From Basidiobolus meristosporus CBS 931.73 (taxonomy: Eukaryota; Basidiobolomycota; Basidiobolomycetes; Basidiobolales; Basidiobolaceae), in the NCBI GenBank assembly GCA_002104905.1, contig MCFE01000047.1:1-64000 (forward strand): a stretch of 64,000 bases of DNA. Reading direction: 5' to 3'. A program made the position numbers and the translations under genes. The notes beneath the pieces were generated by a model that was given only the letters and a program-made list of their open reading frames with translations, did no database searches and was not told the origin of the DNA. Position 1 is the stretch's first letter. Every line of letters starts with the position of its first letter. Shown here in pieces: positions 14,463 to 55,990 of this stretch.

Positions 14463-15399
14463 TTAGTTCTTAGCGGCGGAGGCGTGTTGAGAGCTGAGTC
14501 TTCTCTTCTTGATTTCCTCCTTTCTCTCACGTTGTTCCTTGACACGTTGGGCAAGAAGCTTGGCATACTCGGCAGCAGCCTCCTTGGAGGCTTGGGAGTT
14601 CTTGCGCTTGAGGGCGATTCTGTGACGCTTGCGTTGAAGAGTAAGAGGAGTCACGAGACGTTGGATCTTGGGTGCCTTAGTGTATGGCTTCTTCTCGGCG
14701 TTCTTGGGTTGGACCTCACGACGAATGACAAACTTACGAACATCATCTTCCTTGGTCAAATTGAACATTTTTCTAAGTTTGGAAGCTCTCTTGGGACCCA
14801 AACGCTTAGGCACAGTAGAGTCGGTCAATCCTGGGAGATCTTGTTCTCCTTGCTTGACAATAACCAAGGAAAGGACAGACAGATCAGATCCAACGATACA
14901 ACCACGAACACTCTTTCTCTTACGCTCGCCAGTGCGGCGAGGGCGGTAGCAAGAGTGACCCTTGGATAGAAGAAGACGAACACGGTGTGGGAGGAGGATG
15001 CCTTGCTTCATGGGGAATCCCTGTTTGTCGTTACCACCAGTAATGCGGAAGACATAGCCCTTGAATTCGTCACCGAGAGAATCTCCTGGGACTTCACTAG
15101 ACATACGTTTATCGTAGAAAGCACGACTACAGCAATCTCGTTGAGTGAGTCTGACTTGGGGAATGGAAGCTAGTGTCATACGTACACTTTACGTTCGTCA
15201 TCGATTTCAATGGTCTTTTGACAGCCAGTAGCTGGGTTGGCGATATTCAACTAAAATATTGGTAGAATGTCAGCGAAACGATTTCCCTCTGATTCATAAA
15301 GTTCATCAATGGATGGATAAATATTCTTTTTGGATTCACTAACACATGTTGGATCCTAACGACAACCTATTCCATTCCACTGATAGTAATTACCTTCAT
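14463..15399 (-). CDS. RPS6: 40S ribosomal protein S6 (eS6)
   Basis: Three exons (15399-15394, 15250-15186, 15126-14463) give 244 residues; yeast has 236 and human 249. The first exon is only ATGAAG, so the protein starts [18 protein letters not shown] as in all eS6 proteins. Core blocks are [52 protein letters not shown] and [13 protein letters not shown]. The C-terminal tail carries [11 protein letters not shown], matching the RRxSS sites phosphorylated downstream of TOR/S6-kinase in other eukaryotes. Placing an intron directly after the start codons is typical of fungal ribosomal protein genes. It is divergent from the STIL-like gene about 300 bp away. Confidence 0.97.
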
Positions 15400-15705: not shown

Positions 15706-18700
15706 ATGGCAAGTCATACGCCCAAATCCTCTAACGGTTCCCACTATTCCCCACGGGTTGCTCCACCGCAGCCAAAACCACTTCCCGGCATTAGCCTCTC
15801 CACTCGCAATCTGGTGCCCTTGCAGCCTCAACCTCGGCCGCATCCACTCTTCCATGCTGTACAATCGAGTGAAGATTCGGTAGCACTGAGCAATCCTCAA
15901 CAAGTTGTTGAGGCCGGTTCAACTTCAACCTCTTCCCCTTCCAACTTGAGTAAGACCCCTGTTCAACAAGCCCCTCTTGGTGCTCAGAATGAAACTCCCG
16001 AACGAACGCCTATACGTTTAATTCGTCAAGTTGCCAACAATCTAAATTTAATCAATGGTGAAATGAAGTCGAGAATGCCCGATAAAATCGTTATTGCGTC
16101 TCCACAAACCCCTGGCACGGAAAACGACTCAAGTTGGAACACTTCGCAGAATAGCTATATAAACTCTTCGAGCTTATCAACTGATGTGAGTCCTTTGAAG
16201 ATGTAAGTGCAAATCCACTTCCAAACCATTCCTTTCCTGTGTTAACCATTCGTGAAAGCCACCAAACCCCAAAGAGTGGGATAGTGTATAGTTTTTCACC
16301 CGAAAGTTTGTTGAATCGGACCTTGTACATTGGCACTACAGCTTTATCTACCGCCGTACAATATTTCTCCAAGATTTCTTATGATTCCGGTTCATAATTG
16401 GCCAAGGGGAAGAGGAGGATTCCGAAATATCGGTCTTTTTGGATAGATTTGACCCAGGAAGAAGACAAGACGACGCAAAGAGCAAGGTTCCAACTACTCT
16501 GCTCAACGAAGACCTATTGTATGAGGTTAGTGGACTGATTCTGTCTATGGTTGCGTGATAGAGGCTAAATAAGCCGGCGTGTATCAGATTGTCAATGTGT
16601 CGAACCAAGAGTCAACAAGTGACCCAACAATAGCACAGTTTAGTAAGGCTTTAGAGGTAATTCTTTCACGTTAATGGAGAGTGTTTACAACGTCAATGAA
16701 CTAACAATTTGATAAGGGGTTGGACAAGCAACTCGCTAGTTTAACAACTCAGCCTTCATCTTTGGCCTCAATTTTTTTCACTTGTGACCAGAAGGATGTC
16801 AAATGTAAGCACTTAAATCCTTCTGTTTACAGTACCAGTTAATAACCTTTTTCAAGGCAATGTAGTTGTTCCAAATGTACATTTCCGTCTTCGGTATATT
16901 AAGCCACTCAAAGTTGCCGAAGGGGATGTGTTGAATTCCCTGAAATTGAATCGCTGCCAAGATGGGAATATTGGGTAACTTTCCTTTCCAGAGCCTCTTG
17001 AAGGAGTTCCTTCTAATTCAATTCTCTCTAATAGATATATTGTTCTTGATAACTCCGGTTCGTTGAACGTGGTGTCTGAAGAAACGGTGCGAAGAAAGCA
17101 AAATAGGATAGTTGGATTGTATGTAAATGCATTTTACATTTGGAAAGGAACATTTTATTGACATTTTCAATGATTATCAGATGGGCATACAACGTGGAGG
17201 TTTCCAACAGTGGCCTGGTGGACAAGATTATTCAGTATATAGCGTGGAGATGGAAGCGAAATGGGAACAATTCCGACAGAAGGCCAATGATACTATTGTT
17301 CTTCTCATTCAATACCAATACCGGGTCTCTAGAACAGCTTTTCCTGGAGTGTTTACCCAAGGTTTGAGTTACACTATGTTGCCCTCCGGCTGGACTTCGA
17401 TTTACCTCTGTATCTTACAGATGCAACACCCAAAATATTTGGCTTACAGTTGTTGTAAGAGAATTCTTGAAAACGACCTAGAGCCAATAAGGTTCGATTC
17501 TTGGGAGTTCGTCCTCGATATATGTCCGGCCTTTCAAAAGACCATGGAGAATCGATTTGGAGTTCAAGTTTCAACAATCATTAGTCAACCCGAGTTTAGC
17601 CTCCTGGAAAGTCCAAAAACACCATTAGGGGAGAACAACGTCGACACATATCCTTTGGCCATCAATGGCGATCAATCGAATGCTACTATTTGCGATCTTT
17701 CACCTTCGCAGCAACGTACCCCACCTGTAAATAAGATTAACCAAGGCTACCAGTATGCCGGACACACCCCTCACCCGAAATCTACTCAAAGTCGCCAAAT
17801 CAACGACAGCATTTTGTTACGGGATTCCAGAGCTCCTCGCGTTACCTTCGCTTCTCAAGAAGAGGTGATATCGAATGGGGAGGTCTTCGAAGACTCTAGT
17901 ATCACCATAGAAGATCGCTTTCATAGTAAGTTTGCCCAGTTGTTCAAGTATTAATACGAAGATGACTCTAATTCTTCCTCGGAATTAGCGCCCACATACC
18001 CGTTAAAAAGTGGGGCAATTCAACCCAGTCGTGGTGGTAAGATGAGACTACCCTGGCTACTTGGCATCTATAGGTGATATTGACACCTTTTTCACTATTA
18101 GTTCCAACAAGAGAATCTCCTGAAACTTGTTGCTGCGGCTCGCATTTACCATCGACAAGCGCCCATCCAGCAACCTACGATTCGGATCATGTGGACCTTA
18201 CGAGATACCATCACCGCCTCGCTACATACCAGGCTCCAAAAACGGGGAGAGAGCCAAGGCCGATTCTTTCACACTCTTCAGTCTGCTCTTTGCACAAGCC
18301 TATCTCATCTTGTGATCTCAGCGATGGTCCTGTTGAGAGATTCACCAATAGTCTTCCAGATAGAGTGCCGTATGAATCGCCTAACCGGTCCGTGGATAAT
18401 AAGGAGCCGTATATATGTTACTCTTGCCATCAGAAAAAGCTCAATGTTCGATATATCTGTATGAACTGCAACGGTGATCAGCCAAGTGTACTCCCTACCA
18501 AACCATTACGTAACGGCACCCAGATAAAAGATAAACACTGTTGGAAGCGCAGTTGTGTGGATATGACCATCGAAGCTCCCGACGCCACACACATCGATGC
18601 ATCTACGCCAAATCAAGCCGAGAATATCTACGGAAGTGAACACAATTCGATTGAAGAAGTACGTGAGGAAGCTGTTCAGTACTGCTCCACTCCAGATCGA

Positions 18701-19887
18701 GAAGTCGGGGAAAGAGCAGACTTGGACCGATATAACTTCCACGATGACTACAGACTAGTTAAAGATCTACTATCTGCGGCGTATTGCGAGGTAGAGCGTA
18801 GGGAATCCAACAGCAGTGCCATGGAGCTAGTGAATCATAACAAGAACCCTGAGGTAGAATCGAAAAATCGGGAATCGAGATTGGACTTTTTACAACAACA
18901 AATCGATCTGCTCAAAGTGCAGCTTGCCAGCAATAGGGATAGGCCAGCTACCCTGGACTCGAACCAAATCACGACTACCCTTTACCAGCATGCCTCTACA
19001 AACACTACTGCTTTGGGTCATGGATCAATTACTGAATTAGTGCGTCGGGATGTTGGAGTGAACACCACGATACAAGAGGTAGCCCCTTGTTCCTCCCAAC
19101 ACAAGCCAACCAACCCCACCAAAAAACATCATGAGAGTGCGCAAGGTAGAAAAACGAATTCACGAGAGCGAACTCGAGAGCAACGTTTACAAATTGCCAA
19201 ACTACTTCGCAGAGTAAATGAAATCCTAGCTGAAGGTGGCGAAAGTACCATGGTCGATGATGGACCAAGCCTGAACGAGGAGAGCGAAGATATATATGTG
19301 GCTGAGGTTGCCTCCTCTGAGGATGTGGGTGATCAAGGGATAATGGACAAGATTGCTAGCATGATCTCGGATCCTGAGGAAAGTTTTTCTCTTTGCAAAG
19401 CTGATCAATCTACTCAGGCCGACATACCACAACCATCTTCCGAAACTTTCCGTGCAGTTAGATCTCAGTCTGTACGAGCGAGGGAGACTGTCACCACCAA
19501 TTCCGCGAATCAAAAGACCACCACCATTGTGAGAGACATAGAAACACAAACCAGCCAGATACTAGAGAGGTCCGGGTTCCTTCCTCGAAAAGATCTGAGG
19601 CCGTCATCAAAAAAAGTCCACTTGCATGGCAGGAAATCACGTACTGTCATGAAAAATGCTCCAGCAAATCTCGATTCAAGGGTATTCGTTGAGGAGGTGG
19701 ACGATACTACCGAGAGTGGTATTATGAGATTCACCCGAAATCCCACACAAGGCCGTAGCTTGAGTGCTAATCCCTCTCGGACATCACATGTAAGTTTTCG
19801 TCAATGGGTCACTGCCAATTCCTACTAACTTGGGTTGATTTCTAGGATGCCGTAGATAAGCTGGTCAATCGATACCTTCAAGGATAG
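15706..19887 (+). CDS. STIL/Ana2-like centriole duplication protein (candidate)
   Basis: Twelve exons join in phase to 1184 residues (human STIL 1287): 15706-16202, 16259-16355, 16415-16525, 16588-16656, 16717-16804, 16857-16974, 17035-17118, 17181-17361, 17421-17925, 17962-18036, 18102-19789, 19846-19887. STIL recruits SAS-6 and is activated by PLK4 at the new centriole. Residues 199-415 follow the STIL N-terminal domain: ISVFLDRFDPGRR (STIL has LTVDRFDPGRE), a following VPTTLLNEDLLYE strand, GYIVLDNSGSL, then IVGLW and, after a long helix, LEQLFLECLPK (STIL has LVGIW and EFYECFP). A Ser/Pro-rich region follows, then a CxxC-x10-CxxC pair (residues 714-731), a short coiled coil near residue 870 (LDFLQQQIDLLKVQL, placed like STIL's PLK4-binding coiled coil) and a C-terminal DAVDKLVNRYLQG. 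The exon 2/3 border is uncertain. The family call rests on recalled STIL sequence. Confidence 0.68.
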
Positions 19888-20033: not shown

Positions 20034-20996
20034 TCAATAATAATCTATATCCTCCTCTATCTCCTCGGCCTGTTCTTCTTTCTCCCCGAGATAATTCATA
20101 CATACGAAGAATCCCTCGGTGGATTCTTTCCTCGAAGATGCTGGTTTTTCATGATAAACTTTGCCAAATTTACTTTGCAGTAAGAGCTTGAAATCACGCT
20201 CAGTTCCACCCATAAGAAACTATATATCGAGCCCATAAGCCTTGTGTAGAATGTCTCAGTTCTAGAAACAAATCATACCTTACAGACAAACGTCCCGCCT
20301 TTTCGCAAGACGGTCTCTGCAAAGCCTAACGCGCTTTCACATAAGTTCTTGAAACAAGTGCAAAACGGTTAGTGTGGCATCCTAAATGGTGGCGAGGAAA
20401 CGTGTGTATCTTACCATGATTCGGGCATGGTCTACTGCGTGGTTTCCTTGAAGAAAATAGCGCTTAGTGTGATACGCTGTAGAAGAGGAGAGTACTCCTA
20501 CTTACCGGTAAACGAAGGAGCCATATCAGACAAAACGACGTTAACTTTGCGATTGTCCAAGATCTTTTTAATGGCATTTTGCGTCGAAATATGGGTGAAA
20601 TCCTTCTGCAGTATCTCCACACCAGGAATAGGATTGATTGGTAACAGGTCTATAGCAACAACGCATCCGTCTGTTGGCTTTCTTTCTTCCCCCGCTTTCA
20701 CCTTTCGAAACACTTTTCTAGACGCAACCTGGGACCAACCACCTGGGCTTGCTCCACAATCTATACAAATGTAACCTTTCTTCAAAAATCTATGCTTGTC
20801 ATTCAACTCAACCAGCTTGAAAGCACTACGAGCACGGTAATTATCTACTGTGGCTTTCTTGACAAACTGGTCGTTTCTTTGCCTTTGTGACCATTGCTTT
20901 GCGGAAGCGTAAAAGCGTATTGATACTCTAGTTGGGTTAGGTATGAGCCTACTGCTTACACCAAAAATTGCGGTCAAGGGTGAGCCTGGATAACAT
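20034..20996 (-). CDS. MRM2: mitochondrial large-subunit rRNA 2'-O-methyltransferase, FtsJ/RrmJ family (MRM2)
   Basis: Exons 20996-20960, 20925-20506, 20446-20415, 20347-20279 and 20219-20034 give 247 residues; human MRM2 has 246. The enzyme methylates a uridine of the mitochondrial large rRNA. Visible parts are a mitochondrial presequence-like start (MLSRLTLDRN, then SIRFYASAKQW), RARSAFKLVELNDKHRFLKKG with the first catalytic lysine, the SAM site ICIDCGASPGGWSQV, SDMAPSFTGNHAVDHARIM with the catalytic aspartate, GGTFVCK with the second lysine, and the E of ESTEGFFVC completing the K-D-K-E tetrad. The first intron in this model is only 34 nt, so the start and first exon are tentative; an in-frame ATG also exists at 21032. 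The gene is divergent from the Nudix fusion gene. Confidence 0.88.
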
Positions 20997-21267
20997 TGAA
21001 CTGGTGAGGATAGAAATTTGGGATGGCGACATGCCTAACTACTAGCCTGTTTCGTGATTCCTATTTGCTGTGTTCCCTGAAAAGTTTGTTATCACTGATC
21101 AAGTCAATTCGACTTCAGAGCCCTCAAATCATGGCTAAATGGGTTTTGAACCAAGCCACAGATTAAGCAAACATCCATGAATGTCCACGTGTATAGCAAA
21201 TAGATCATAGGCATGGATGCTGGAAATGTGTGGTATTGAAAGACTATCTTCAACCTAAAGAGGCGAG

Positions 21268-45989: not shown

Positions 45990-48173
45990 CTAAACGGCAC
46001 AAAGGATGTCCGGATACTCAGATTGCACTAGGTCAATAATCTCTTGAGTATCTAACGGGCGATGTTTGATTTGATTCAGAAGGGTTTGCAAGGATTTCGA
46101 GCTGGGCTTGACCCCGTGCTCCTTCATCTCCGACGTAAATACCCCCTTCGCTTCGTTAAACGCTTCGAATTTGCATAGAGCCTCCATGTAAGCGTTGAAG
46201 TTATTTTCACTCAATGGAAAATGTTCGTCCTTCAGCCTATTCCAAATACTGTGCAGGGTCTCAAGATCCCCATTCGTTCCGCACGAGTCCAATAGGGTAG
46301 ACACATGCGCGACAAGTTGCTTTGCGGGAAAGATTTCTCTGGCCGCCTTCCAGACTTCGAGAGTTTTGGCCCCGTCTCCCATGAAGCTATGATAATTCAT
46401 CAGTATTCCGTAAGTAAACGCATCGGACGGAAGCTTTCTCCCCGTCATCTCACGGTAAAACGGCATGAATTGCTCCAATTTGAAGTTGGAAATGCATCCG
46501 TTCATCATGATGTTGAATGTACTGGTTATCAACGGGACGTGGTTCTTCTTCATTTGCTCGAGCATGTGGAGGGCTTGGTCGAATCTAGAGTTCTTCATGT
46601 ACCCGTCGATCAGCCCGTTATACGTAAGGGAGTTGGGTCGGAGCCCAACCGCCTGCATCTCTTCGAACAGCTCGATAGCCCTGTCCATACTCGAGTGCTT
46701 ACCATAACCATTGATGAGGACTGTATATGTCTTCACATTCGGCGCTATCTGATGCGCTTTCATCAACTTGAACAACTCAGAAGCCTGGTCCAGCTGATCG
46801 ATTTTGATGTAGCCGTCGATGAGCGTTGTGTAGGTAGCTACATCTGGTTGAAGGCTATGGCTCACCATCTCACCAAAGATGGCGCTTGCCTGCTCCATGT
46901 CACGGGACTTCGCGAAGGCATGTATGAGGGAATTGAATGTGATGGTATCTGGCTTGATGCTCCGTGAAAGCATGTCTTGATATAGCTTCCATGCGTTCTC
47001 AACATCTCCTCGCTTGGCAAACGCCCCGATGAGGATGCTGTAGGTCCTTTCGTTGGGTAAAACTCCTTTCGAGAGCATGCCCTCGAAATACTCCATCGCC
47101 TTTTCAAAGTTCTGGTTTCGAACGAAACCTTGGATCAATGTTGAGTAAGTGACTACGTTGGGAGTAACACCCTGCTTGATCATCTCCTCGAGAAGAAGCA
47201 CTGCCTCGTTTAAGCAAGACTTCCGGGTATATCCCTTAAGGAGAATAGAGTATGTCCATATGTTAGGTAAGAGTCCGAGTCGAGTCATGTCGTTGAAGGC
47301 ATTGGTGGCCTGCTCCAGACTCCCGCAGTTGATTAATGCGTCGATCAGCACGGAGTAGGTGGTGATGTCTGGGACAATGCGCTGGTCCATCATTTCTTTA
47401 TATATACGTGTGGCCTGGTCGATGTTTGAGGCTTTACAACATGAATAGAGCAACAAAGAGTACGTCTCGTTGTTGGGGAGCACTTTGATTTTCTTCATAT
47501 CCGCATAAATACTCATGACCCGGTCGAACTCCTCGTACTTGTTCGAGATCTTCATGAGAGCATTGCAGGTGGTGGCATCCGATAAAATTCCATGCTGCAG
47601 CAACATCCGGTACAACTGAAAACTGAGCGCAGGCGAGTTTCGACTCAGACTAGAAATCAGCTCAATATAGAGATCGGAGGTCGGCTTAAGCCTCTTTTGA
47701 AGCATTTGCTGTAGTGTTTCTTCCACGCGCTTGACGTCTCCCCTTCTCGCGTGATGTAGAGCAAGCGCACCGAACTCGGCGCTAGAGGTAAGCTTTATAT
47801 CGTTTCGTTCAATGTATGCAATAATTCGCTGACATCTTTCGACAGCGTTTGGGTCTTTTCCCTTCACTATCAAACGCAATAGAAGGGCAACTTGCTTGGA
47901 GGGTAGGATTTCGGTCAAGTCGTGCTCGTAGATCTCGCTAAAAATCTTCCAAGCTCTAACCGAATCACGCTGACGTACTGCGGTTTCAATGCTGGGAGTG
48001 GGAGGGATTTTGGTGGTGAATCGGTTGTACCTTGAAGCTAAACGAATTTGATTGCGAGAATCTATTAAAGGAGGGGATGGCGGCACTCTAAGAAAACTTG
48101 GCTTTGGGAGATTCTTTTGGATTATGGTGGATATTCCACGTCCCAAAGCCGGCACTCGCCCAAGCTGGGACAT
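45990..48173 (-). CDS. mitochondrial pentatricopeptide-repeat (PPR) protein
   Basis: Single-exon gene of 727 residues from ATG 48173. PPR proteins bind organellar RNA, about one base per repeat, for processing, stability or translation. The N-terminus (MSQLGRVPALGRGISTIIQK) is basic and lacks acidic residues over its first 20 positions, as expected for mitochondrial import. From about residue 140 to 640 at least twelve 35-residue P-type motifs run in series, with repeated cores such as TYSVLIDALINCGSLEQA, TYSILLKGYTRKSCLNEA and TYTTLIDGYIKIDQLDQA. No DYW, SMR or endonuclease domain is attached. The high regularity and number of repeats is unusual for fungi, where PPR arrays are mostly irregular. 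The RNA target cannot be assigned by eye. Confidence 0.92.
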   Translation of the reverse strand: MSQLGRVPALGRGISTIIQKNLPKPSFLRVPPSPPLIDSRNQIRLASRYNRFTTKIPPTPSIETAVRQRDSVRAWKIFSEIYEHDLTEILPSKQVALLLRLIVKGKDPNAVERCQRIIAYIERNDIKLTSSAEFGALALHHARRGDVKRVEETLQQMLQKRLKPTSDLYIELISSLSRNSPALSFQLYRMLLQHGILSDATTCNALMKISNKYEEFDRVMSIYADMKKIKVLPNNETYSLLLYSCCKASNIDQATRIYKEMMDQRIVPDITTYSVLIDALINCGSLEQATNAFNDMTRLGLLPNIWTYSILLKGYTRKSCLNEAVLLLEEMIKQGVTPNVVTYSTLIQGFVRNQNFEKAMEYFEGMLSKGVLPNERTYSILIGAFAKRGDVENAWKLYQDMLSRSIKPDTITFNSLIHAFAKSRDMEQASAIFGEMVSHSLQPDVATYTTLIDGYIKIDQLDQASELFKLMKAHQIAPNVKTYTVLINGYGKHSSMDRAIELFEEMQAVGLRPNSLTYNGLIDGYMKNSRFDQALHMLEQMKKNHVPLITSTFNIMMNGCISNFKLEQFMPFYREMTGRKLPSDAFTYGILMNYHSFMGDGAKTLEVWKAAREIFPAKQLVAHVSTLLDSCGTNGDLETLHSIWNRLKDEHFPLSENNFNAYMEALCKFEAFNEAKGVFTSEMKEHGVKPSSKSLQTLLNQIKHRPLDTQEIIDLVQSEYPDILCAV

Positions 48174-48450
48174 GGTGGTTAATGGCAGCCAAGAAGGTAA
48201 ATTTTTTGTGTTTTGTTTGGGGCGAAGACCTCTTGCTATATTCCTAAATCGAGGGCAACCTTCTCAGCACGGTTTCATAGAAATTTTCACGGGGAATCAA
48301 ATTTTATTGAGTGATTTAGGCTGTGTGTGATTTGAAACACTCGGATTTCTCCCGCATCCCAAAAAATCCCATTTTGATCCAGATAACGCTGAATAATGAT
48401 CCAACAAATGAGTCTGAATTCCTGGCAAATGGATGGGGAAACTGGTTGGT

Positions 48451-51776: not shown

Positions 51777-54700
51777 ATGATTTCTGTCCCTAATCCAGAT
51801 ACCAATTTCCAGAACAACGTAATAGGTAAAAGAACTGCTAGTTTGAGTGAAATCAAAGCAATAACTAATTTCTGTGTATAGCGCCAACTCAAAATTCCTT
51901 ATTAAATTCCACACATCCGATGCAGGACGAAGAATTAGCACAACAGGAGTACCAAATCCCAGAAGATGTCCTCTCTGTCTTACCCTACTTTGATGGATTC
52001 ACGACCAAATTCTACATGCATGGTTTTCTTCATAAGAAAAATGAATCCACCCCGGATGGTAGACCTTTCAAGATGCGAGACTGGACTCGGTGGTATGTTG
52101 AGTTGTGTGGGCCTGTTATGATCTTTTGGAGAGCAACTCCCGAATATACCACAAGTAATGTTGAGAAATTGAAGGCTCTGGTTGCTCCGAACTTCTTGAA
52201 CGTCTCAGATTCCATCGTAAACGTTACCCAAGAGCAGGACGGCCGTAAATTCGTATTCTCACTCAATACCTCGGGAGCAAACTGCTTTTACATGGAGACC
52301 GGAAGTTTCAACGAGCTCAATGACTGGGTTTGTGCTATTCGTCTCTCATCTTATGAGATGGCCAAATTACACCATATGTATACATATGTGATCCTAACTC
52401 GCCCCAACTTCGCCAACCACTTTTCTACATATCACACTTTTACCGAAGGCCAGCTTCAGATTAAATATGCTGGCGCTTCTCAGTGGAGACAATGCTGGGC
52501 TGTGTTGGATAATAGTAATGCTGCTTCACCTGGTGGACCACAAGTCCAGTTCTTCGAGGACAATCATTCCGGCCCTTTCCTTACGTTGAGGAAAGCATAT
52601 CAAGCCTATTCGGTATACCCCGAGAGACCGGAGCTTTCAGACGTTTCGGGAATATTCAAAGTAGAGGGGACTATAGATATCAACATTGATAATAACGGGA
52701 TTAGACCCGAATTCATTATTATGAGCGCCGAGACTCCAGATGATATGGCAAGATGGGTGGTTGCCATTTTCGATGCATACAAGCTTTTGGGAAGACCTGA
52801 GCAACTTGATATCCCTCCTGCCCCTTCCGATGCCCAAAACCTTTTCTTGGATGTTGCGCAGGTCAATCACTTAGATATGGCCCGTAACAATTCGATGGAT
52901 TGCAAGCGTTTGTTCGAGAACGTTCTTACAGGAAACAATGAGCCCCTACATGAGCAAATGATGAATATGAAGCTCGAAAATGCCCCCAAAGTCACCAGAA
53001 CCGCTACTAAATCATCAGTCAGCTTCGCACCAAACACCAAGAAGAACGGAAAGAAGCCCAAGGCCGTCCTTCCAAGTGATTCCGAAGAGTCTGATGAAGA
53101 AGTGATGGTCGAAGAATCGGATAGTGATGATGATGATGGGTTGTTCATCAGCGCACCCGCTACCCAGCAATATGGTATATTTGGCTGGTTCCAAAACTCT
53201 TACCTCTGTTCTTAGCATTGACGATTTCTTGTAGAGAACACAAGCGCACGCTCTGAACGTGAATCAGTTGAACTTCAAGCGCAGTCATTGTCCAAGGTGC
53301 CCAAGGCCAAAAAACAGCTAGCCAGCGAATCAGAATCAGATAGTGATGATGGTGAACTTTTCAAAAAAGCACCCGGTGTCCAGCAACAGGGTTAGTCTGT
53401 GCATTAACTTGAGGGTCAAGTTTGTTTAAATAACATCATCTACAGAGAAGATAGAATCTATTGCTGGAGGTGAGTCGAATGACCTCACTGCATCGGCTTC
53501 GGCCAAAGCATTGAAAGCCAAAAAGCAGTTAGCGAGTGACTCTGAAGAAGAAAGCGATGTAGATGGTACTCAGCAACATGGTAAATATGCACTGTTTCCA
53601 CGATATCTCAGAATCCAAAGTAATAGCTCCTATCTTCTACAAAAGAAGTTGGTCCCACCACCGAAAATACTACGGCCAATCTTAAGGTGCCAAAAGCCAA
53701 AAAACAATTGGCAAGTGAATCGGAGGAAGATAGTGACGATGGTGAGCTATTCACCGGGGTGCGCAGCACTCAGCAACATGGTAAATATGAGTCATTTCTT
53801 TAATGTTTCGTCGATATTGAAGTTTTGACACATTTGCTCATCCTCAAAGAATCAGAAGCTAGTACTGAGAGTGGGCCAGTTGAGCTTAATGCCGAGTCCT
53901 CGTCTAATGGAGCTCCTACAGCTAAATCACTAAAGGCTAAGAAGCAATTAGCAAGTGATTCTGAAGAGGAGAGTGACCAAGATACCCATCTATCTAATCA
54001 GCAATCGTCGCCGGCTCAGTCATTTGCAACCAAGTCTTCGGACCCTGAACCTGCGGTTCCTAAAGCTAGAAAACTCAAGGCCAAAGCCGTCTTACCATCC
54101 GATTCTGAGGAGAGCGAGCATGAAGACGAGGATCCAGTGTTCATCAGCGACAACAAAGCTTTACAGCAACAACAGCCTGTTATAGCTTTTACTGGGCCTG
54201 AAAACGACATGTACCACGATCCACGCTACGCCAGTTCCGCGAATCAATTTCCACGCCCTACATCGGCAGTTGACCCTCGACCCATGAGCTATAATACCAT
54301 GAACCCTTACCCTCAGGATATTGGACGCAGGGATCAAATGGGACGACAATATCCCCACAGCATTGCTCAGAGTGAATACGATCCAAGATACCCAGGCTGG
54401 GAGGGAGGAGCTCCAGGCGCCAGCATGTATGCACGTGATCCTAGCATGGATGCAGAGGAGAGATGGCGTCGCGAGGAGTTTGAACGTCGCCGATTTGATA
54501 TGGGCCCAGCTTCGCCTACTCTACAGTCCAGTATGTATGGCGTAGAGGATGAAATGCCCATCGGCGGCTTCAACCCAATGGATAGGCGCCAACTTGAGCA
54601 CCAGCGCTTGACCGCCATGAGAGGAAACAGCATGTATGCATACAACAACTCCAGCAGCTATGGTATGGGCATGCCTATGAACATGCCCATGAATATGCCC

Positions 54701-55990
54701 ATGAACAATGGATCTGGGTATTATGCCGGCTCTGCATACATGGATGATTCTGGATTCGATTACCACGACCCAGCTTTCGGATATTCGCCATACCAATCAA
54801 GAATGGAGCCCATGGGGCTATTGGCCGCGCATGAAGCTGCTAGACTCTCTCGCTTTGAACAGCCCAGACACGGACCTTTAATACAGGTCGATAAAAAGAA
54901 GGTCACTCATCAAGTGGGCTTAGTAGGTGCTATTGCTGCTAGGGAGCAGTACAAAGCTACACACAAATACACCAATGCCAACTCTGGTAGCGCAATGCTA
55001 GAGTTGGCTCGCGAGAGGGAGGGGGCTCTTGAAAGAGAAAAGGAGCGTATGTTGATGGAGCAAAGACAGCAGGTTTACTATCAAGAGGAGCTTCGTCGAA
55101 GGATGGGTGCAGCAAGCACTGACAGAGGTTACATGTACCCCTCTTACGGCGGTGTTCCCCCGATGAACCCAATGATGCGCCCCGGAAGCAATGTATATAT
55201 CCCTGAAGGCTCAGATGAGGAGGACAATCAAACTCTTGTAAGAGCTCTCCCGGGGCAGCGGTTTTCTTCACCACACCTTCCTCAACAGCCTCAAAGCATG
55301 TATGGAGCTCCGAGCAACCAGCATCTTTCTATCTCACCTCAGTACCCTTCCCGATTATCCGCACCAATGAATAATGATGCTGCCCCGATTAGCCCAGGTG
55401 GACTGGGCCGTCACTCGTACATGGAATCTGGCTCGTTTGCTCCAGCCGCCCGTTCAGTTCAGAATGCTGGTGTTGGATATCCTGTCAACCAACGACCAGC
55501 TTCTTCATTTGCATCAACCAACTCATCTTCAAATGTCTCCCCCGCCTCATCAAGAAATCACATAGAGTCGATCACAACAGGTTCTCAAAATTCATTTGCC
55601 CAGCCTAAGCTAGCCGAGATGTCCCCGCAACCACTTGTCATGAGCTCTCTATCTTCGGCCATGGGTGTAAGCGTCTCCAATGATATGGAGCAGAGTGGTT
55701 CTGAAAGCGAGGAGGAAAATGTTCCTACGGCCAGTGGCGAAATTTCCGACAAGTTTGAGGAGTTTATCGATGACAAAGTAGAGATGAAACCATATTCATT
55801 TGTCGATTCTCAACACCTGTACGACTCGTATCTGTCGTGGTGTCGCGTGAAGAGATTACCACCCAGTGCTCAGGCGGGGCCAGGGCAAATGGAAGCTCTA
55901 ATGATGGAAAATGGATTTACTAAGAAGAAGAAGAAAGATGCGTCCCCAGATGAAGAGCCTGAGCAGTGGTACAACATTACTATAGTCTAA
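51777..55990 (+). CDS. PH-domain protein (Skg3/Caf120-like) with Ser/Asp-rich exon repeats
   Basis: Six exons (51777-51825, 51882-53174, 53235-53390, 53446-53580, 53646-53780, 53850-55990) give 1302 residues. An in-frame ATG at 51738 would be used if the 5' UTR intron is not spliced. Residues about 60-350 hold a double-PH region (YMHGFLHKKN, WTRWYVELCGPVMIFW, later WRQCWAVLDN and FIIMSAETPDDMARWVVAIFDAYK), most like fungal Skg3/Caf120-type proteins of bud-neck and CCR4-NOT association. A middle region repeats KAKKQLASDSEEESD-like acidic units, one per exon. The C-terminal half is Pro/Met/Tyr-rich and disordered with an MNMP run, a predicted coiled coil around 55000-55100, and a conserved-looking end (KFEEFIDDKVE, LYDSYLSWCRVKRLP). 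Function is inferred only from the family. Confidence 0.8.
53235..53950 (+). repeat. array of duplicated phase-1 exons in the PH gene
   Basis: Exons 53235-53390, 53446-53580 and 53646-53780, plus the start of 53850-55990, each begin and end (or begin) in phase 1 and each encode one KAKKQLAS(D/E)SE(E)-type unit. The second and third are exactly 135 nt. Exons 2 and 3 both end CAGCAACATG and are followed by introns starting gtaaatatg. This is the pattern of tandem exon-plus-intron duplication. Confidence 0.75.

Follow-up and report, generated by a model that had tools for sequence, protein, structure and literature searches.

A STIL-family gene, with predicted PLK4 and CPAP partners, in the flagellum-less fungus Basidiobolus meristosporus

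Accounts in PMC6559791 and PMC6070874 hold that centriole-biogenesis proteins are unidentified in fungal genomes apart from those of chytrids, and flagellum loss has been tied to centriole loss in a passage of PMC1599754. Coemansia, as portrayed in PMC6070874, has a spindle pole body that contains a cylinder of nine microtubules, yet the orthologues went undetected there. Sanchytrids are described in PMC8371127 as having singlet centrioles and as having lost delta- and epsilon-tubulin; the main text of that report makes no mention of Basidiobolus. For Basidiobolus itself, an account in PMC3281927 depicts a nuclear associated body that is superficially centriole-like, with a completely different microtubule arrangement that is not 9x3, and a passage in PMC6492006 describes an organelle that bears microtubules, is not a centriole, and is not always at the spindle poles. 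Among the matches listed in the open-licence literature, we found no report of STIL, PLK4 or SAS-6 in Basidiobolus.

Here, we describe a STIL-family gene in B. meristosporus CBS 931.73. Like the chytrid set described in PMC6559791 and PMC6070874, it places centriole-assembly genes in a fungal genome; chytrids differ in having centrioles and flagella, whereas Basidiobolus has no flagellum and SAS-6 was not found in our searches of its genome. With the sanchytrids, on the description in PMC8371127, Basidiobolus shares a reduced microtubule structure; in its genome delta- and epsilon-tubulin went unrecognised in a survey made by scores and partly by eye, without a positive control. Sanchytrids retain nine singlets and a pseudocilium, whereas the Basidiobolus body is described as lacking a 9x3 order.

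The STIL-family gene and its landmarks

The window, which is the whole 64,000-nucleotide stretch analysed (C724:1-64000), belongs to an assembly of 89.0 Mb in 1311 contigs. Splice sites, a match to Pfam STIL_N and an orthologue in Basidiobolus ranarum define the gene model, whose exons are linked by ten introns, each 52-65 bases long and with GT..AG ends:

15706..19887, + strand: STIL-family gene with 11 exons, coding for some 1195 residues
15706..16202, + strand: exon 1, with 21 N-terminal residues (15706-15768) identical in B. ranarum, then a proline-rich stretch
16259..16525, + strand: exon 2, with the start of the STIL_N domain, DRFDPGR and VPTTLL, and a frame break near 16385-16394
16588..16656, + strand: exon 3, from splice analysis and B. 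ranarum comparison
16717..16804, + strand: exon 4, from splice analysis and B. ranarum comparison
16857..16974, + strand: exon 5, from splice analysis and B. ranarum comparison
17035..17118, + strand: exon 6, with most of GYIVLD and the beginning of IVGLW
17181..17361, + strand: exon 7, with the end of IVGLW, and ECLP at 17347-17358
17421..17925, + strand: exon 8, where the conserved N-terminal domain ends and the less conserved middle begins
17989..18036, + strand: exon 9, from splice analysis
18102..19789, + strand: exon 10, with the divergent middle and the C-terminal part
19846..19887, + strand: exon 11, with the conserved C-terminus DAVDKLVNRYLQG and the stop
14466-15188, - strand: ribosomal protein S6e, adjoining the STIL gene
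20501-21034, - strand: FtsJ-type methyltransferase, adjoining the STIL gene

An earlier note had proposed a clean model of twelve exons. The ten introns do join the exons, but there are 11 of these and exon 2 is broken in frame: near 16385-16394, at a place where an intron cannot fit, the conserved reading shifts frame. The break splits two conserved stretches, and the B. ranarum protein runs uninterrupted at that point. The conceptual protein used below has 1196 letters, with an X placed at the break. Small indel errors are common in PacBio data. Because CBS 931.73 is described as PacBio-sequenced in a passage of PMC7466969, such an error at 16385-16394 would be unsurprising. Elsewhere, the chosen exons agree with the B. 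ranarum orthologue. A rival splice that removes a 37-base intron (17455-17491) gave a STIL_N score of 38.7 bits against 40.5, and was rejected because B. ranarum leaves it unused and reads straight through the exon.

We show by sequence comparison that 15706-19887 is predicted to encode a genuine member of the STIL/Ana2 family. Pfam STIL_N (PF15253), the profile that had been set in advance as the refutation test, matched the full model at 36.8 bits (E 2.9e-9), exceeding the curated cut-off of 27, with the HMMER match confined to profile positions 56-159 of 404. The stretch downstream of the frame break scored 40.5 bits by itself (E 2.2e-10), and the part upstream gave no match to the profile. 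Across the whole genome, the profile found a single locus, this same gene (28.4 bits, from one exon), and no second one. With hhalign, the two Basidiobolus proteins matched human STIL at a probability of 81% (P 1.2e-5) over 168 columns with 24% identity, so that both profile comparisons came out in favour of the family assignment.

The landmarks that the earlier note had seen in residues 199-415, in the order of vertebrate STIL, are borne out by their coordinates and by the alignment with the human protein:

16442-16462, + strand: DRFDPGR, opposite human DRFDPGR
16487-16504, + strand: VPTTLL, opposite human TPTASL
16973-17050, + strand, spanning an intron: GYIVLD, opposite human GYLTMD
17108-17184, + strand, spanning an intron: IVGLW, opposite human LVGIW
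17347-17358, + strand: ECLP, opposite human ECFP

The window protein aligned with human residues 76-318 at a local score of 107, with the landmarks collinear, and 300 shuffled controls averaged 34.6 (sd 4.4) with a maximum of 52. The B. ranarum piece scored 83 against human STIL, with a shuffle maximum of 60. The human sequence was entered by hand; it scores 653.8 bits against STIL_N, which indicates that it is good in that region. Searches of PDB sequences gave no match with the N-terminal part of the window protein, and two chance matches and nothing else with the B. ranarum protein.

A protein search returned one sole significant homologue among 1311 candidates, B. ranarum K7432_004062 (P0001), which is 63% identical across the searched region and whose UniRef name comes from the STIL N-terminal domain. 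It matches STIL_N independently (29.8 bits, E 3.9e-7). The two proteins are orthologous along their full length, with 594 of 1168 aligned residues identical (51%), and differ in that the B. ranarum protein is longer (1360 residues) and unbroken in frame. Identity is highest, of four segments, in the N-terminal segment, window residues 166-460 (192/292, 66%); it stands at 93/162 in residues 1-165, 145/388 in residues 461-860, and 164/326 in residues 861-1196. Proline-rich blocks are conserved between the two proteins, and QYAGHTPHP (17751-17777, exon 8) is identical. Residues 1-21 are also identical, in contrast to the diverging sequence that follows them, and this points to a conserved motif at the N-terminus. 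Within the divergent middle lies a cysteine-rich block, YICYSCHQKK (18410-18439), whose cysteines are partly retained in B. ranarum.

Toward the C-terminus, the model contains a candidate coiled coil and a further conserved block:

18872..18934, + strand: short predicted helix ESRLDFLQQQIDLLKVQLASN, positioned like the PLK4-binding coiled coil of STIL, a candidate only
19175..19240, + strand: second conserved helix-like block REQRLQIAKLLRRVNEILAEGG, from B. ranarum comparison

The helix proposed as a coiled coil at the PLK4-binding position lies in a fitting place and is conserved, with its residues 1-12 identical in B. ranarum, but its identity with the STIL coiled coil is unsupported by sequence. 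The helix gave no match to Pfam CC_STIL (PF25775), and in ungapped scans with the human coiled coil its site came second in B. ranarum (18 vs 19) and tied for second in the window protein (15 vs 16). No STAN domain was recognised in a crude scan, short and ungapped, that used a single human segment. Taken together, the window protein resembles vertebrate STIL in its ordered N-terminal landmarks, its long, poorly conserved middle, and the corresponding places of its short helix and conserved C-terminal blocks. It differs in being about 24% identical in the aligned part, in the partial coverage of STIL_N by HMMER, in having no recognised CC_STIL coiled coil or STAN, and in belonging to an organism without a flagellum.

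PLK4, CPAP and the search for SAS-6

A genome profile search placed Plk4_PB1 at C613:76329-76673 (48.1 bits). The protein pieced together at this locus matched Pkinase (230.3 bits), Plk4_PB2 (E 3.1e-22) and Plk4_PB1 (E 7.3e-15). Among the best 60 of 224 PDB sequences, its kinase was closest to four PLK4 sequences (281.4-278.7 bits), with PLK3 next at 201.0, while its tandem polo boxes drew seven PDB matches, each of them PLK4 (one a chimera), with a best E of 1e-26. The structures closest to its last piece were of PLK4 PB3; the best of them, 4yyp (E 0.0019), is described in PMC4530586 as PB3 bound to the STIL coiled coil. This last piece matched no Pfam family at E 0.001. These comparisons show a clear predicted PLK4 in the same genome.

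The same genome is likewise shown to encode a predicted CPAP/SAS-4 G-box. At C447, Tcp10_C had two places that exceeded its cut-off of 36 (56.2 and 39.6 bits) and one that fell short of it (28.8 bits); the C447 piece matched the profile at E 2.9e-23 and five CPAP/SAS-4 PDB sequences, the best at E 2.1e-31. A fourth place, C424, was taken as chance at 13.3 bits, and the Tcp10_C search also gave a below-cut-off match in one bacterial control.

Searched without a positive control, the genome held no match to the SAS-6 profile PF16531 at E up to 10 and none to the human SAS-6 N-terminus, which suggests that SAS-6 may be absent. The SAS-6 coiled-coil profile PF18594 returned one chance place only (C563, 13.8 bits), rejected because by eye it looks like an SMC-type gene on the opposite strand. 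In the best 120 of 675 and the best 120 of 204 SAS-6 relatives, all named rows are animals and therefore uninformative on fungi. Of the partners that the earlier note had wanted sought, PLK4 and CPAP are thus present, but SAS-6 was not found in searches lacking a positive control. Of the SAS-6/PLK4/STIL module that it had placed in the fungal ancestor, STIL and PLK4 occur in this genome; the SAS-6 part is unsupported.

Tubulins gave 18 matches. Ten are full-length, and their scores were the sole ground for calling them alpha or beta. The remaining eight are fragments spread over four loci: visual reading made one of these beta-like and two gamma-like, and the fourth, with the scores of C369, was taken as a copy. 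No delta- or epsilon-tubulin was recognised among the 18, judged by scores and partly by eye, without a positive control. The gamma-tubulin-like loci C369:27993-28752 and C687:68065-68824 have equal match scores and equal spacing and represent either a duplicated gene or uncollapsed alleles; a third gamma-tubulin-like locus lies at C430.

Among cilium-related families, IFT57 gave one weak place (11.4 bits, cut-off 40), with seven prokaryotic controls equally weak, and the radial spoke family gave one (13.4 bits, cut-off 25.7), both searched without a positive control. Rotatin gave a single place at 16.4 bits, under its cut-off of 25. A CFA20-domain (CFAP20-like) gene lies at C467:80518-81111; its two pieces scored 99.5 and 100.9 bits and were confirmed by Pfam. 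Since plants that lack flagella have kept CFA20-domain genes too, this gene is no sign of an axoneme.

A possible switch for the nuclear-associated organelle

We consider it likely that a retained PLK4-STIL-CPAP switch builds or duplicates the nuclear-associated organelle of Basidiobolus. By analogy with animals, the polo boxes of PLK4 would bind STIL and PLK4 would phosphorylate it, while STIL would engage the G-box of CPAP and CPAP would place microtubules. Such a switch would most likely start and count the organelle, giving rise to a microtubule body that is reduced, not of 9x3 order, and in the service of mitosis rather than of a flagellum. In support stand the STIL_N matches, the human alignment, the hhalign result, the N-terminal conservation, PLK4, CPAP and the centriole-like body. 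We count against it that SAS-6 was not found, that coiled coil and STAN are unrecognised, that the PB3 piece has no Pfam family, that Rotatin falls below its cut-off, that the gene carries a frame break, and that the organelle is described as it is in PMC6492006. The earlier guess of a centriole remnant suits an organism with the centriole-like body depicted in PMC3281927, and STIL together with PLK4 and CPAP hints that this body beside the nucleus is a remodelled centriole.

A bolder form of this idea, which we regard as rather unlikely, is a SAS-6-free centriole pathway in which PLK4, STIL and CPAP alone template a non-ninefold microtubule cylinder; the organelle would then be a living intermediate, standing between a centriole and a spindle pole body. 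True loss of SAS-6, the setter of nine, would account for the missing ninefold order.

The missing SAS-6 match could also mean that a genuine STIL is retained for another task, such as PLK4-dependent mitotic signalling, and that the microtubules of the organelle are made otherwise; the description in PMC6492006 of an organelle not always at spindle poles points the same way. We think this unlikely, given that PLK4 and the CPAP G-box are retained as well, that all three proteins cooperate in animal centriole assembly, and that the lineage possesses a centriole-like body, as depicted in PMC3281927. Nor does the frame break lead us to favour a decaying relic whose protein is no longer made in CBS 931.73. 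A shift inside a conserved domain, with no intron and no second STIL_N locus in the genome search, is what such a relic might show; the remainder of the gene, through its last exon, nevertheless has frames that stay open and splice sites of the ordinary kind, and it still resembles the continuous B. ranarum copy, and the indel-prone PacBio reads noted above also speak against decay, which we judge quite improbable.

Basidiobolus inhabits vertebrate guts and holds many genes of bacterial origin, according to a passage of PMC7466969, a setting in which STIL might have been acquired from an animal host or might reflect contamination. Such an origin is very improbable for a gene that is flanked by fungal housekeeping genes, contains ten short introns, reaches only some 24% identity with human STIL, and is matched by an orthologue in another species, B. 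ranarum. Hardly credible, finally, is the reading that the protein is not STIL and resembles part of STIL_N by chance or convergence. The limited HMMER coverage and the unrecognised coiled coil and STAN would suit it, but the landmarks are collinear up to human residue 318, the B. ranarum protein matches STIL_N independently, hhalign recovers the relationship, and PLK4 and CPAP occur in the same genome.

The presence of STIL, PLK4 and CPAP in a flagellum-less lineage suggests separate losses of the flagellum and of the core machinery for centriole assembly. The three genes also offer molecular handles on the nuclear-associated organelle, through which the question of a centriole remnant becomes experimentally approachable.

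Other genes in the window

Farther out around the STIL locus, the genes are ordinary. An open frame of 728 residues (53804-55990, + strand) has no Pfam match at E 1e-5. Another frame, of 757 residues (45990-48263, - strand), has many PPR repeats, with PPR_2 matched in 11 stretches (E 2.8e-125); for a gene in a fungus this array is long.
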